Part shown: positions 46,353 to 52,518 of the stretch, one piece after another
Numbering within the stretch: position 1 is the first letter of the stretch
Layout: each line of letters begins with the position of its first letter
Assembly (NCBI GenBank): GCA_025656675.1
Contig: JAHXHN010000001.1
Coordinates: 897,501-961,500 of the forward strand
DNA: 64,000 nucleotides
Source of the DNA: Candidatus Thiodiazotropha sp. (ex Codakia rugifera)
Lineage (GTDB): Bacteria > Pseudomonadota > Gammaproteobacteria > Chromatiales > Chromatiaceae
Direction: 5' to 3'
Position numbers and translations under genes: made by a program
The notes under the pieces: generated by a model
What the model was told of the DNA's origin: nothing
What the model saw: only the letters and a program-made list of their open reading frames with translations
Database searches by the model: none

Positions 46353-47261
46353 CTAAATTTTCGGTGCCTGATGCACTGTCAGTGTGCGTTTGATAACCGG
46401 TTGCTTCATGCCGTCGATGCTGAGTTGTAGTCTGTGCTCTCCTTCCGGTAAGCCGGCAATCAAAACTTGCGGGCTTTTCCCCACGCACTTTCCATCTACA
46501 CGCCATCGCAGTGCAGCGGGGAGGCTGCGATCTCCCTGGGGATCATCCACCTCGGCCACGAGGGAGATCGGGGCTCCGGCGACCAGTTTCGTTTCCTCGC
46601 GGGGCTTAAGCATCCTGAGATGGGGTTTGAGCGGTGCCAGCGTGAAGGATGGACTGACCACAGTCTTGCTACGGAATCCGACCCTGTAGGTTACAGACAA
46701 GCGGCAGTTTTTACCCCCTGGCAGATTCTTTGGGTCGAAAGACAGTTTCTCGGACACCTCACTGACAGCCACCACACGATAGTGTTGAGCTCCCCAGTGG
46801 ATGGCCAGGGTAAGCAAGGCATCATTTCCTTTTTCCGGTTTGGACAGGTTCAACGAGAGACGGTATGACTTGCCCCTTTGCAATCGGCCCTTTGGCCATT
46901 TCACCTTGAGTTCAGGACTTTTACCGATCAGGCAACGGTAGATCTCACGCTCCTGTCGAAGTATCACGACAATCGCTGCACCCGGGAGGAGAGGGAGCCT
47001 GCCCATCAGTACTTTATGCGCTGGTTCAAACTCATGACAAACCACTGGGGTATGTATCATAGGGTGATCACGCATCAGAGTTTCACCCTCCTCATCGAGA
47101 AGGAGCAGACTATACTCGCTGGTTTTCTTGGCGCCTTTAGGCTTATGCGCTGATACCAGTTGTTGGCTGCGGCTGCTCAATAGGGAGAATTTTTCACCAG
47201 GGTCAATCAAGCCTTCAACGATCAGCCATTCAGATCCGGTACGCAGTTTTTCTTTGATCAT
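46353..47261 (-). CDS. Unknown beta-rich accessory protein of the metzincin cluster
   Basis: I do not recognise this 302-residue family. Four or so beta-rich segments are seen (EWLIVEGLIDPGEKFSLL, YRLSLNLSKPEKGNDALLTLAI, and two Ig-like stretches such as ISLVAEVDDPQGDRSLPAALRW and LPEGEHRLQLSIDG). The last half resembles Ig-like or PKD-like carbohydrate- or protein-binding folds. There is no signal peptide. It overlaps the 932-residue metzincin gene by an ATGA, so it is made together with it and probably binds it or its substrate. Confidence 0.7.
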   Translation of the reverse strand: MIKEKLRTGSEWLIVEGLIDPGEKFSLLSSRSQQLVSAHKPKGAKKTSEYSLLLLDEEGETLMRDHPMIHTPVVCHEFEPAHKVLMGRLPLLPGAAIVVILRQEREIYRCLIGKSPELKVKWPKGRLQRGKSYRLSLNLSKPEKGNDALLTLAIHWGAQHYRVVAVSEVSEKLSFDPKNLPGGKNCRLSVTYRVGFRSKTVVSPSFTLAPLKPHLRMLKPREETKLVAGAPISLVAEVDDPQGDRSLPAALRWRVDGKCVGKSPQVLIAGLPEGEHRLQLSIDGMKQPVIKRTLTVHQAPKI

Positions 47262-50056
47262 GGTGGTCCCACAAAGTCGAACATCTGTTGCCAGCGTTGT
47301 GCAGATACCCAGCGCCTGTCGCAGTAAGTCATCAAGTCAAAGATGGTGCCATTGAGGGCGCTATTGTTGAGGATATCGAAGGGAACTCCGGTGACCATGC
47401 CACTGTTTTCGAAGTCAGCCGGGTCGGATCCACCCGGTGCCTCACTGCCGTTGGGACACTGTACAGCCAGGTGTTGCTGGTTGAGGCAGTGGGCCAGTTC
47501 GTGGGCAGCTGTAACAGGGCGGTAGGGTGTCAGGTATTCCAATCCACCTATATGAGCCCGCCCCCAGCCACCGGTTGTCGGGACAACAATTGCCCAGTAG
47601 GCATCATCATCCTCCGGGCATAGAAGGCCGGTGATGTCGATGAAGGCGCAGATGCGGATGAGTCGAATCCACTCAAGATGGCTGTTGCCGAAAATGTCAT
47701 AGCCGAGGGAGCGGGAGAAATCGCCGAATGGCGTTTCGATGATGGTACGATCCAGAGAGATACGGATGGAATAGCTATCATGCCGGGAGATGGATTCAGC
47801 GGTTGTGGGTATCTGTTGTAGTGATTCCTCGATCAGGTCACGGCACTCCTGATCGGTGGGTGGGTTGCTGATTCCTTCAGCCATATTCAGGGTACCTGTT
47901 GTATCGGGATCAACGGTGACCGGAATATAGCGTATACGGACCGACTTCCGTTCCTCAAATTCGAACCCATCAAATCGCTGGGTGACTATTTCACTGAATC
48001 CCTCAATATCATCACTGCCGCCAGCCCCCTGGACCCGTAATTCCACCTCTATATCGAGCACGTCGTGACAGAGCGCTTCTGGAATGAGGAAGTTGACTGT
48101 GTCGTTTGTAATCCCCAGATTGGGACTGGTGGGGAGATCGATTCTTGCGTCGAAGTCGGCCTCCGGAGGTCGCTCACTCGAGTTGTTGATGGGGGCATCC
48201 CATCCAGTGCCGGTGGGGAATTCCTCATTGAAATAACGTATCCGGCCCCAAACGCCGGGTAAAGCGGGTTGGTTCATCTCGGCCATGGAATGGGTTCCGA
48301 TGAGGCGGACCACAGTTGATTTCCCTGCTACCAGCACCACATCGTCTTCTGGCGTCTGCATCCCTTGGGTGACTTCTATACCGATTATTTCCAGTTCAGG
48401 GGGTTTCGATAACAGAAACGTGACCCATTGATCCACCTGACCACAATCATTCTCGGCACGCAGGCGGTAGGTGGCGGTCGTAACAGCGGTATGGCTGCTC
48501 GGTTCGAGGGTGATGCTGTTCGTGCCTGTCACTGGAAGAAACTGCTGGAACCCGAACGGGTTACTGCCAGGAATGTCAGGACCAGCCGCCGTCTCACGGG
48601 AGAGGGTTAAACTTTCCGCATTCTCGACCTCCCATGACAACTCGAGCTGATCGCCGGGACCCACTACACCAGTTTGTGCCGCGTTACCTCCAAGGCTGCC
48701 CCGGAAATAGCGTATAACGGGTGGTCCGACGGCTATGACATTGACCGCGGTTTGTGGCGGGCAAGGTATTGCCAGGGTTGTCTGCAGGGTGGGGAAAATC
48801 AGTGGCCTGCCAAGACAGGTACTGGCAGCCAGGACCTGGGCAGCGGTTGTATTCATATCACCGACCCAGCTGTTGAAGGCATGCGTCGCCAGCTTGTCGT
48901 AAAATCCCACCGCCCCGGAAATGAGCTCATTCGGCATCTGCACACGGATTTCAGTTGAATGCCAGTTACCTGGATCGACTTCGAGTGCCCTGCAACCGTT
49001 CAGGGTATGTGCAATCAACGCGATATTGTCAGGCTGAGGGTCACCGAAGCCCTGGCCCTGGATGACCATCCAGTCACCATGACAGGGTCCCTCCAGCACG
49101 ATGCTTTCAATGTTATCAGCCCAGGCCCTGAGGCGGCCGAACACCTTCAGGCTGGGTGCTTCCGAGTTGAAGATGTCGATCAGCAAGCCTTCGCAACCCA
49201 GTCGGAGGACGTTGTCGTCACCAGGGAGAATGGGCCATGCGGGTTCATCACACGTTTCAGGGTCGTCCGGCTCAATCCAGCCCCCAGGTAGGCCGCCCCA
49301 AGGATCACCTTCAGGTTCGCCACCCCAGGGGTCTCCCTCAGGCCCTCCACCCCAAGGGTCACCTTCAGGTCCGCCACCCCAGGGATCACCTGAGGGATCA
49401 ATCTCAGGTCCACGTCCAGGAGAAGAACCGCCGCAAAATGGTCCCCTACCGGCAGCAACACCCCAGGCAAACTGATCGCCCAAGGCGGCCTGCCCCCCAC
49501 TTCCCAGGGTGTGGTGCAGGGATTCAAGGGTCTGCTCGGCATGACTGAGTGAAGCGATGTACCCAAAGGCCTCATGCATGATCTCGGTGTGGCCGCCACT
49601 GGCGAGGAATGCGGCTTGATAGAGGGGGGCAATAGCCTCGAAGGAGACCAGCTGAGACGATGGATATTTCCCGCGACCGCTTCGCCTTGTTCTGATCACC
49701 TTATCCATATTTGCCAGTGAGGCAGAGGGTGCTGGAAGGTGCTTCCGTAATGTGCGTAGTCCCTCGATAAAGCGATCAGGCGCGGTTGGTTCATAGCGTA
49801 AAACCGCATCGGCTTCCTTACGCATGAGAGTAAGCAGACGCAAGGGAAAAAACAGTCTGTTATGAACTGTACGGGCATAGCTGCGGGAAAGACCAAGATG
49901 GTTGGCTGTGATGCCCAACATCAAGGATAGGCGCTTGGCTGAATGTGGGTTATACAAAGGTGGCGGGGGAATGACTTCTTTGTCTGGTTTGTCATCCAGC
50001 GCTTTTTTGGCGGCCACTGATTTTTCTTTTTTTAAGTACTTCCTTTTCTTCTCCAC
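47258..50056 (-). CDS. Large metzincin-like zinc protein with GDPWGG repeats
   Basis: This 932-residue protein ends in a zincin domain: HELAHCLNQQH (His852 to His862) follows HExxHxxNxxH, so the three His that bind zinc and the Glu base are present, but Asn replaces the usual metzincin Gly; a Met-turn (DLMTYCD) follows about 60 residues later. Upstream are beta-rich domains (VRYFRGSL..LELSWEVENAESLTL, an Ig/TIG-like stretch), four 9-residue repeats of GDPWGG type near residues 220-256, and a basic helical N-terminus. No signal peptide is present. It is the central gene of three on the minus strand. Protease activity is inferred from the motif; substrate is unknown. Confidence 0.8.
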   Translation of the reverse strand: MEKKRKYLKKEKSVAAKKALDDKPDKEVIPPPPLYNPHSAKRLSLMLGITANHLGLSRSYARTVHNRLFFPLRLLTLMRKEADAVLRYEPTAPDRFIEGLRTLRKHLPAPSASLANMDKVIRTRRSGRGKYPSSQLVSFEAIAPLYQAAFLASGGHTEIMHEAFGYIASLSHAEQTLESLHHTLGSGGQAALGDQFAWGVAAGRGPFCGGSSPGRGPEIDPSGDPWGGGPEGDPWGGGPEGDPWGGEPEGDPWGGLPGGWIEPDDPETCDEPAWPILPGDDNVLRLGCEGLLIDIFNSEAPSLKVFGRLRAWADNIESIVLEGPCHGDWMVIQGQGFGDPQPDNIALIAHTLNGCRALEVDPGNWHSTEIRVQMPNELISGAVGFYDKLATHAFNSWVGDMNTTAAQVLAASTCLGRPLIFPTLQTTLAIPCPPQTAVNVIAVGPPVIRYFRGSLGGNAAQTGVVGPGDQLELSWEVENAESLTLSRETAAGPDIPGSNPFGFQQFLPVTGTNSITLEPSSHTAVTTATYRLRAENDCGQVDQWVTFLLSKPPELEIIGIEVTQGMQTPEDDVVLVAGKSTVVRLIGTHSMAEMNQPALPGVWGRIRYFNEEFPTGTGWDAPINNSSERPPEADFDARIDLPTSPNLGITNDTVNFLIPEALCHDVLDIEVELRVQGAGGSDDIEGFSEIVTQRFDGFEFEERKSVRIRYIPVTVDPDTTGTLNMAEGISNPPTDQECRDLIEESLQQIPTTAESISRHDSYSIRISLDRTIIETPFGDFSRSLGYDIFGNSHLEWIRLIRICAFIDITGLLCPEDDDAYWAIVVPTTGGWGRAHIGGLEYLTPYRPVTAAHELAHCLNQQHLAVQCPNGSEAPGGSDPADFENSGMVTGVPFDILNNSALNGTIFDLMTYCDRRWVSAQRWQQMFDFVGPP
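49290..49397 (-). repeat. Four 27-bp tandem repeats encoding GDPWGG-type units
   Basis: Four consecutive units encode GDPWGGGPE, GDPWGGGPE, GDPWGGEPE and GDPWGGLPG. The DNA copies differ at several third positions, so the array is not recent but is likely to vary in number between strains. The repeats link the N-terminal helical region to the beta-rich part. Confidence 0.85.
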
Positions 50057-50406
50057 CAGAGTCTCCCGTATACGCTTTCAAGATGGCTTTACTGGTGAAG
50101 CTGCCCTATGTCCAGATAGCGATTTCCCCTACACCTTCGACAACAATACCCACATGGAACGGCTGGAGGATGTAAAAACATTAAAAATAATACATATGGG
50201 TATACAAAAAAATAATAGAGTTCATTTCCCTATTGTCAACGCTGTAAACAACTACTGTCTGCGCGGTCTTTGTCCAGGAGGCGCCGGCATTAAAAATGAT
50301 GTCTGTCACTGTTTTTTTCTGTTTTTTACCTGAATCCGCAGGTTGGTGCTTATTGATATAAGGCCATCACGGCTAGACCTACGGATTCAGGTTTCAGTCA
50401 TCGTAT
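50057..50406. other. 350-bp gap between metzincin genes with a 16-bp inverted repeat
   Basis: The gap contains no gene. Its main feature is a 16-bp inverted repeat, ACCTGAATCCGCAGGT at 50328-50343 and ACCTACGGATTCAGGT at 50377-50392, with one mismatch and a 33-base spacer. On the plus strand T-runs precede it, so it is not a normal terminator for the minus-strand gene. The AT-rich part (50170-50220) may hold the promoter of the 932-residue gene. Confidence 0.6.
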
Positions 50407-52518
50407 CTACTTACGTCGCTTAACAGCCTTCAAGCGGCGTTGCAGATCTTCAATGGCGGTTTCAGCCGATTTCCGCTCTTTCATCTGTTTGATTGTACTC
50501 TCCAGGGTGGAGACCGCTTTCTCTTTGTTATCGAGTTCCATATGGCTGTCTGCAAGCTGTTTGATCAGTCGAGTCTCGGACAAGACGTCAAATGCAGCGT
50601 CTCTGCCATAACCACTGGACAATTGAGATGTGGCAGCGGTCAATTGTTCAACCGCAGTCTTGTGATCAGCGCAGTCTGCCACAATCACTCGCTTACCCTT
50701 TTTGATATCGACACGTTTGTGGATGCGTGCTGCGTTACGACCGAGTGCTGCCGCGATGTGTCGAACTGCAATCGGATCTGTGTCTGCATATCGCTCAGTT
50801 GCTTCGGTCAACTTGTCGATGACAGCCGGATCTCTTCGTGATCCCCCATAGTAGAGAAATTTTGCGGCTTCCGGACTGGTCATAAGATGGACGAGCTCTT
50901 CACTACCTCTGGATAGTGGATAGGCAATCCGGATACGTTGGGTCGCAGTGGCAATGAAACCAATTGGGAAACAGGGGTAATAGACCCTGAGCAGATACTC
51001 GCCAGGTTCGGCAAACTGATGTCCTTTGGCTCCGAAGCTGAGACTGATACTGGTCAATGTCGAGGCGCCAGGCGCAAGCTCGAATGGCTTCGGCGGTGCC
51101 ATCAGACGTCTTACCGGCGGGATAAAAGTAACAATATCACCGTTTGGCCGTTCAATGATGACCCTTAGCAGACCCTCTTCCGGTTGGAGGCGATCGATGA
51201 CATGGACTGGCTGGGTAGAGCTGTTGATCAGCTTCAGCCCGAGATTCACCGGAACCCCGACATCAAACACATGAGGTCCCTGCAGTTCCAGAGTGACGGG
51301 GGTCTGGAGCTGTTCGAATGAGGGCTTAAGCTCAGCACTGAGGTTGTTGCCTATCCAGTCCCTGCCACCGAAGATGACATCGTTACGGTCGGCATGACGC
51401 ATCCAGATCAGTTCCGGATCGTCGAATTCCCAACGGAAATTTGACCAAAAGTTAGTTTCACCGCCGCCATTGTCGGTATACCCCCATGGGTAGTTCATGA
51501 AGGATTCAGATCCACTATCCGGATTGACCGATCTGGACCAGGAATGCGGTAGGTTAAAGGCGTGACCGATCTCATGGATCAGCGTCTGCAGGATCAGCCG
51601 ATCCTTTTTATCGGAGGTGTCGTAGAGGCTGTCGACCTCCCTGCCCCGGATGGCATCTTCTGCAATGGCAGATCCTTGACGAAGGAAGGTGTCACCGGCC
51701 TGCCAGCCACCCCAGTCAAACATCGTGCCGTAGTAGCCGGCGTTGTAACCGGGGTCGCCAAATTTCGGCACGATGACACTGTAGAGGTTCCACTGCAGTG
51801 TATTGGAGAACTGGTCGAATCTGGCCTCCATCAGGTCATGCAGTTCAGCCTCACTCCAGTTCTCTTCTGCATCATTACTGTCCGCATCATTGAGCAAGTC
51901 ATCATGGACCACAGTGAGATCAATTCCGGAACGTAAAAATGTTTCACGGATATTCACCGAGCTTGGTAATCCACTGGGTGATGGATCGATATCCGGATCG
52001 AGAGTCGGTGGGAATACGGTCCCTTGAAAACGGTCGACTTCCAGCGTTGCAGTACGGAAATACTCGGATATCTTGGGGCAGATATAGGATTGCACCAGGT
52101 TGCCGTTACTGAGCCAGCTGACACAGGCTGCTGCTGGTGAGGCAAAATAGCCGACACGAGGAATACGCACCTCAATGGTATCTGCATTGTTGCCCGGATC
52201 GGCGTAGTAGATAACCGGACCCGAAAGAACCAGGGCAGAACTGTCTCCTGTCTCGGTAACAGCTTCCACAACGAAGGAACCGGTATAATAGGTAATCGGT
52301 ATGCCACAGAACGTAAAGTGGGTGTAAAGGTCGCCACTTAGACGCTCCTGGGGACGACGCTTATCTACATCAACGCGTAATTCGAGGATCGAACCATAGC
52401 CAGCGGGTGTGACATTGCGGTAGCTGCCGCTTACCGGCCGCTTTAGATACGCAACGATCCAATCGGGATTAAGTTCAGCAATCTGTTCGATGTTGAGCTG
52501 GGTAAGATCAGTAGGCAT
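50407..52518 (-). CDS. Large metzincin-like zinc protein, 703 aa
   Basis: The zinc motif HEIGHAFNLPH spans His315-His325 (again HExxHxxNxxH), followed by the Met-turn ESFMNYPWG about 25 residues later; before it is a substrate-cleft-like region (NLYSVIVPKFGDPGYNAGYY). The N-terminal 200 residues are beta-rich, and after the catalytic domain come Ig-like segments (VFDVGVPVNLGLKLINSST, GEYLLRVYYPCFPIGF) and a helical, lysine-rich tail. There is no signal peptide. It shares the unusual Asn with the neighbouring 932-residue protein, so the two are probably paralogous partners. Activity and substrate are inferred only. Confidence 0.82.
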   Translation of the reverse strand: MPTDLTQLNIEQIAELNPDWIVAYLKRPVSGSYRNVTPAGYGSILELRVDVDKRRPQERLSGDLYTHFTFCGIPITYYTGSFVVEAVTETGDSSALVLSGPVIYYADPGNNADTIEVRIPRVGYFASPAAACVSWLSNGNLVQSYICPKISEYFRTATLEVDRFQGTVFPPTLDPDIDPSPSGLPSSVNIRETFLRSGIDLTVVHDDLLNDADSNDAEENWSEAELHDLMEARFDQFSNTLQWNLYSVIVPKFGDPGYNAGYYGTMFDWGGWQAGDTFLRQGSAIAEDAIRGREVDSLYDTSDKKDRLILQTLIHEIGHAFNLPHSWSRSVNPDSGSESFMNYPWGYTDNGGGETNFWSNFRWEFDDPELIWMRHADRNDVIFGGRDWIGNNLSAELKPSFEQLQTPVTLELQGPHVFDVGVPVNLGLKLINSSTQPVHVIDRLQPEEGLLRVIIERPNGDIVTFIPPVRRLMAPPKPFELAPGASTLTSISLSFGAKGHQFAEPGEYLLRVYYPCFPIGFIATATQRIRIAYPLSRGSEELVHLMTSPEAAKFLYYGGSRRDPAVIDKLTEATERYADTDPIAVRHIAAALGRNAARIHKRVDIKKGKRVIVADCADHKTAVEQLTAATSQLSSGYGRDAAFDVLSETRLIKQLADSHMELDNKEKAVSTLESTIKQMKERKSAETAIEDLQRRLKAVKRRK

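Follow-up and report, generated by a model that had tools for sequence, protein, structure and literature searches.

What do two adjacent genes for large proteins with a common zinc-protease motif encode, and do they form one system with the smaller gene beside them? The question is raised by a 64,000-nucleotide stretch of Candidatus Thiodiazotropha sp. (ex Codakia rugifera) (assembly GCA_025656675.1, contig JAHXHN010000001.1, positions 897,501 to 961,500), hereafter called the window. Three open reading frames (ORFs) are read there on the reverse strand, for proteins of 703 (50407-52518), 932 (47258-50056) and 302 residues (46353-47261); the last two genes share an ATGA stop-start overlap (47258-47261). 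An earlier reading of the sequence, referred to as the original prediction, had described these ORFs, two zinc motifs, two Met-turns and the overlap, all of which were found in place. It had further proposed a set of proteins acting together, perhaps as toxins. The region probably encodes something else, namely two leaderless zinc endopeptidases of the metzincin type that are unrelated to each other, plus the separated tail of one of them, with zinc binding, proteolysis and complex formation as predicted properties. This explanation draws on the sequences, their conservation and the selection acting on them, on a modelled fold for the 703-residue protein, and on collinear matches for the gene fission.

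The zinc motif is HEIGHAFNLPH in the 703-residue protein (residues 315-325; 51544-51576, reverse strand) and HELAHCLNQQH in the 932-residue protein (residues 852-862; 47471-47503, reverse strand). The Met-turn methionines are M341 in the former (SFMNY, from residue 339; 51496-51498, reverse strand), which is invariant in the alignment of its relatives, and M909 in the latter (LMTY, from residue 908; 47330-47332, reverse strand), which is invariant in five rows. Around 5e-5 chance matches to the motif are expected in 1635 residues of the same composition. The asparagine in the place of glycine had been considered non-standard. The motif is not unusual, because the metzincin consensus, given as HExxHxxG/NxxH/D in the passages on the motif in two papers (PMC11674741, PMC12237041), allows Asn at this place; both large proteins conform to it. 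A literature search for the motif spelled with Asn alone found none, which bears on the spelling only. The Asn is invariant in the relatives of the 703-residue protein (the 703 family) as sampled, and Gly stands in its place in the 932-type relatives from Thermus, Bradyrhizobium and one other genome (G174).

The Asn variant is attributed to lower pappalysins in the pertinent passage of PMC12237041. With these enzymes (ulilysin, mirolysin; family M43) the window proteins have the Asn in common. Ulilysin and mirolysin are also among the weak profile matches (E 0.5-0.9), and PAPP-A2 is among the structural matches of the 703-residue model. The difference is that no M43 family of Pfam was matched by the three window proteins (E 1) or by 51 aligned members of the 703 family (E 0.01). 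PMC6949598 describes lower pappalysins as secreted zymogens with a cysteine switch.

A confident, multi-domain AlphaFold2 model was obtained for the 703-residue protein. Alignment and model together delineate an N-terminal helix (residues 10-24), a β-domain (31-164), a catalytic domain (approximately 185-385), an immunoglobulin (Ig)-like region (405-535) and a helical C-terminus (537-703). The catalytic part of the model matches ADAM-8, ADAM17 and PAPP-A2 (VIA structure comparison), and thereby has the catalytic fold of the metzincin clan. Residues H315, E316, G318, H319, N322, H325 and M341 are invariant in the 51-row alignment of the family. It is presumed that His315, His319 and His325 bind zinc, that Glu316 activates water, that Asn322 makes the turn and that Met341 forms the Met-turn. 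The β-domain in front, and the Ig-like and helical parts behind, may select the substrate or a partner. Ig-like regions had been announced for both large proteins. The model agrees for the 703-residue protein; for the 932-residue protein the claim stays conjectural because no Pfam domain was found in it at E 1. The copy of the 703-residue protein in a congener (G001; L006:1498-3480) is without 43 residues of the N-terminal β-domain, and its frame stays open.

Relatives of the 703-residue protein are widespread. They were found by tblastn in plasmid records of Nonomuraea, Arthrobacter, Embleya, Rhizobium, Halocatena and Methylobacterium. A scan with one genome per species yielded at least 174 relatives; 80 loci were retained and joined to eight earlier ones for a set of 88, in which L007 and L022 represent one gene. 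Record titles assign them to Proteobacteria, Actinobacteria, Bacteroidota, Acidobacteria, Cyanobacteria, Chloroflexi and others. HExGHxxNxxH is present in 87 of the 88 loci; for L017, the motif lies outside the piece read. The scan patterns favoured HE[AIL]GHAFN, and 25 of these 87 do not match that pattern yet keep the Asn.

The best values for the 51 aligned members were E 0.0034 in Pfam and 0.0066 in NCBIfam. None of the three proteins considered here reached a Pfam cut-off, the 703-residue protein scoring 14.2 bits against M66 (PF10462; cut-off 20.6). A member from Embleya, outside the 51 aligned, is barely over the cut-off of Pfam Reprolysin_4 (22.7 versus 22 bits). Its long extra N-terminus (L013:5278-8013) is reminiscent of hemopexin-like repeats, a resemblance for which Pfam gave no match. 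Judged by these comparisons, the 703-residue protein is a member of a broad, uncharacterised family that has no model of its own in Pfam or NCBIfam. The original prediction was right in that no curated family names either large protein, and their metzincin nature is supported. They have in common with the metzincin clan (adamalysins, ADAMs) the HExxHxxG/NxxH motif, the Met-turn and, in the 703-residue model, the fold of the catalytic part; they differ from it by large extra domains, by a start that is not signal-like and by falling short of every Pfam cut-off.

The 932-residue protein is of another kind. Sequence comparison marks its C-terminal part (approximately residues 556-932) as an M66-like metzincin module, the profile of which matches adamalysin II (E 1.4e-5). 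A 742-residue ORF of Natrinema gelatinilyticum (L103:7787-10015) matches this C-terminal part and then the 302-residue protein, in that order (E 7e-12 and 1e-8). For the 302-residue protein there is a further match in the C-terminus of a 986-residue Bradyrhizobium protein (E 1e-9), which has HELGHQYGRSH in its middle. Because of these collinear matches, the 932- and 302-residue proteins read as the two-gene form of one M66-like chain, the C-terminal part of the 302-residue protein being equivalent to the C-terminus of the single-chain relatives. The split is kept in G001. Both single-chain relatives have, like the pair, a metzincin module followed by C-terminal β-domains, but in one gene instead of two, and with an added cyclase-like N-terminus in Bradyrhizobium. 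With M66 (StcE-like) proteases the link is a 932-type relative from Thermus that passes the Pfam M66 cut-off (33.9 versus 20.6 bits), whereas the 932-residue protein matches nothing in Pfam at E 1, M66 included, carries Asn for Gly and is encoded together with its tail by two genes. The two products would together make up one longer M66-like chain. Translational coupling through the ATGA overlap would allow the catalytic module and the C-terminal β-domains to re-form as a complex. In the N-terminal half of the 932-residue protein, a Gly/Asp/Pro/Trp-rich tandem repeat of the GDPWGG type (approximately residues 223-257; 49286-49390, reverse strand) is a probable flexible linker. In the Bradyrhizobium protein (L105:1484-4444), an M66-like metzincin and 302-like domains are joined to an adenylate/guanylate cyclase-like N-terminus, which scores at the Pfam cut-off.

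All three genes are under purifying selection, with between-species ratios of nonsynonymous to synonymous substitution rates (dN/dS) of 0.06 for the 703-residue, 0.15 for the 932-residue and 0.18 for the 302-residue protein. The two large proteins are predicted to bind zinc and to cleave proteins, and are most likely active leaderless metzincins. Several observations weigh against this. With the whole 703-residue model, Foldseek places Ig-like and other β-domains on top, with low whole-chain scores, and unrelated β-sandwiches reach a Z similar to that of metzincins on another part of the model (VIA). With the 703 profiles, no solved metzincin was matched better than E 0.04, and MHC class II chains, surely by chance, score equally well or higher. 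Finally, the Natrinema relative has QEIGHNCIGSDH, where the first zinc-binding His is replaced by Gln and the motif is one residue longer. Since Gln stands for this His, some 932-type members may be inactive, possibly including the Natrinema relative. The loss of the first His in this relative speaks for metzincin-fold pseudo-enzymes serving as binding proteins, a reading made quite improbable by the invariance of the ligands and of the Glu throughout the 51 rows of the 703 family, and by the presence of the motif at 87 of its 88 loci.

Are the two proteases related to each other? They had been presented as a pair sharing a motif. BLASTP gave nothing better than E 0.70 between them, and a profile comparison aligned 17 columns, around the motif only. 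They are unrelated, because there is no similarity outside the zinc motif. Their distributions were compared in 56 genomes, including the genome of the window. Full-length copies of the 932-residue protein occur in this genome and in G001, and G011 has a fragment that lies at a contig end; a search through 369 genomes of the class gave one further, distant match. The 703-residue protein is present in the same three genomes and also in G023 (32% identity) and G035 (25%). G003 and G020 retain no more of it than 57 and 51 C-terminal residues, at the same chromosomal place (L009:1501-1657 and L010:1498-1653; window 50410-50566). The gene seems to have been lost in part of the genus, because these two congeners keep just the C-terminal remnant.

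The other 703-family loci examined yielded neither a 932-like nor a 302-like gene. The trio, which was to be looked for in other genomes as a general system, was found only in congeners, the 302-residue protein not having been searched alone in whole genomes; it looks like a local, partly lost arrangement. That the three proteins act together as toxins, as first proposed, is very improbable: the genes are adjacent on one strand, and their order is kept in G001 and, up to the contig end, in G011, but neither companion was found at the family's other loci examined, and the proteases are dissimilar outside the motif.

If these proteins act outside the cell, how would they get there? None of the three has an N-terminal hydrophobic segment (best 12-residue hydropathy mean 0.78-0.92), as judged by a simple rule on 12-residue windows starting in the first 40 residues, which is not a signal-peptide predictor. 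The absence of a signal peptide from the two large proteins, noted in the original prediction, is borne out to this extent. By a simple rule of this kind, none of 85 scored family members has a signal-like start, the picked start being internal for at least L008 and L015. As a judgement rather than a result, extracellular action after release by a non-Sec route is somewhat favoured over a role in the cytoplasm.

One such route would be an extracellular contractile injection system (eCIS), with the 703-family protein as cargo. Peptidases are named among eCIS-associated toxins in PMC8213781 and PMC11297309, the latter of which also names an eCIS signal peptide. An eCIS-type locus is present on another contig of the same genome (G000:C2, approximately 47000-77000; L020, L021). 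It has two genes for sheath proteins, of which the second scores under the curated cut-off, and further contains tube, CIS_tube, baseplate J, an AAA ATPase and an eCIS_core protein, together with a tape-measure protein that falls under its cut-off. A second open frame at this locus, with a HELAHVMQQ stretch, reaches the end of the fetched sequence. The cargo reading would also fit the leaderless starts of the family, the tripeptide DPT near the N-terminus of 26 of 81 members, and the co-occurrence of the 703 gene with CIS_tube in three genera (10 observed versus 3.5 expected; 6 versus 2.0, p 0.002, without genomes of known state at the choice of genus; 5 versus 1.85, p 0.01, without a weak match as well), although these counts ignore descent and two of the three genera were picked because carriers were known there. 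Against it, the window genes and the eCIS lie on different contigs, and the stretches of 86 family loci, queried with this genome's eCIS proteins at E 1e-4, yielded no eCIS gene (some stretches end at contig ends). Of the 49 further genomes that contain a 703 relative, 15 gave a match to CIS_tube (14 of these above the cut-off) and 34 did not. Among the 56 relatives this marker is present in six; the 703 gene occurs without it in G011, G023 and G035, and the reverse holds for G005, G006, G019 and G026. The injection idea of the original prediction thus stands in that the genome has a contractile system and the two traits coincide in three genera, and is weakened in that the system is not beside the genes and most carriers gave no match to the marker. 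A cargo role is weakly suggested, and as an explanation of the 703 family it is a minor and rather unlikely one.

The DPT of the family, found within the first 16 residues in several phyla (e.g. L068, L073, L085, L099), has a background of 9 in 1193 ORFs of the same loci, seven of the nine listed being family members themselves. In some members it is followed by a SVEDxA-like stretch, a loose pattern for which matches 13 of 85. The DPT stretch resembles a short tag for sorting or docking. It is not present in the window's own 703-residue protein.

A small gene for a transthyretin-like protein accompanies the 703-family gene in 43 of the 88 loci. The partner may serve the proteases as an inhibitor, an anchor or a substrate, inside the producing cell or on its surface; the window's copy of the protease lacks it. 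Such a role is possible, if clearly less probable than the reading as leaderless metzincins, with which it is compatible. No partner was found in the window or in the other 45 loci (13 of the 88 have less than 1500 bases on one side), and a common fold by itself shows no function. A more elaborate proposal makes the 703-residue protein part of an unnamed metzincin family, found in many bacterial phyla and a haloarchaeon, that forms the leaderless half of a module with the transthyretin-like partner (inhibitor, immunity protein or surface anchor) and would be exported by the contractile injection system, where present, through the short conserved N-terminal tag; taken as a whole, it is unlikely.

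For the two unrelated leaderless metzincins and the detached tail, the kind of protein and the motif are known; the 703 family and its partner lack models of their own in the libraries used. In the 932/302 pair, as read from its relatives, a single protease chain is clearly split between two genes that overlap. The 703 family is large, strongly conserved and leaderless, and has a recurring small partner, so that the effect of this partner, and export, if any, become testable questions.
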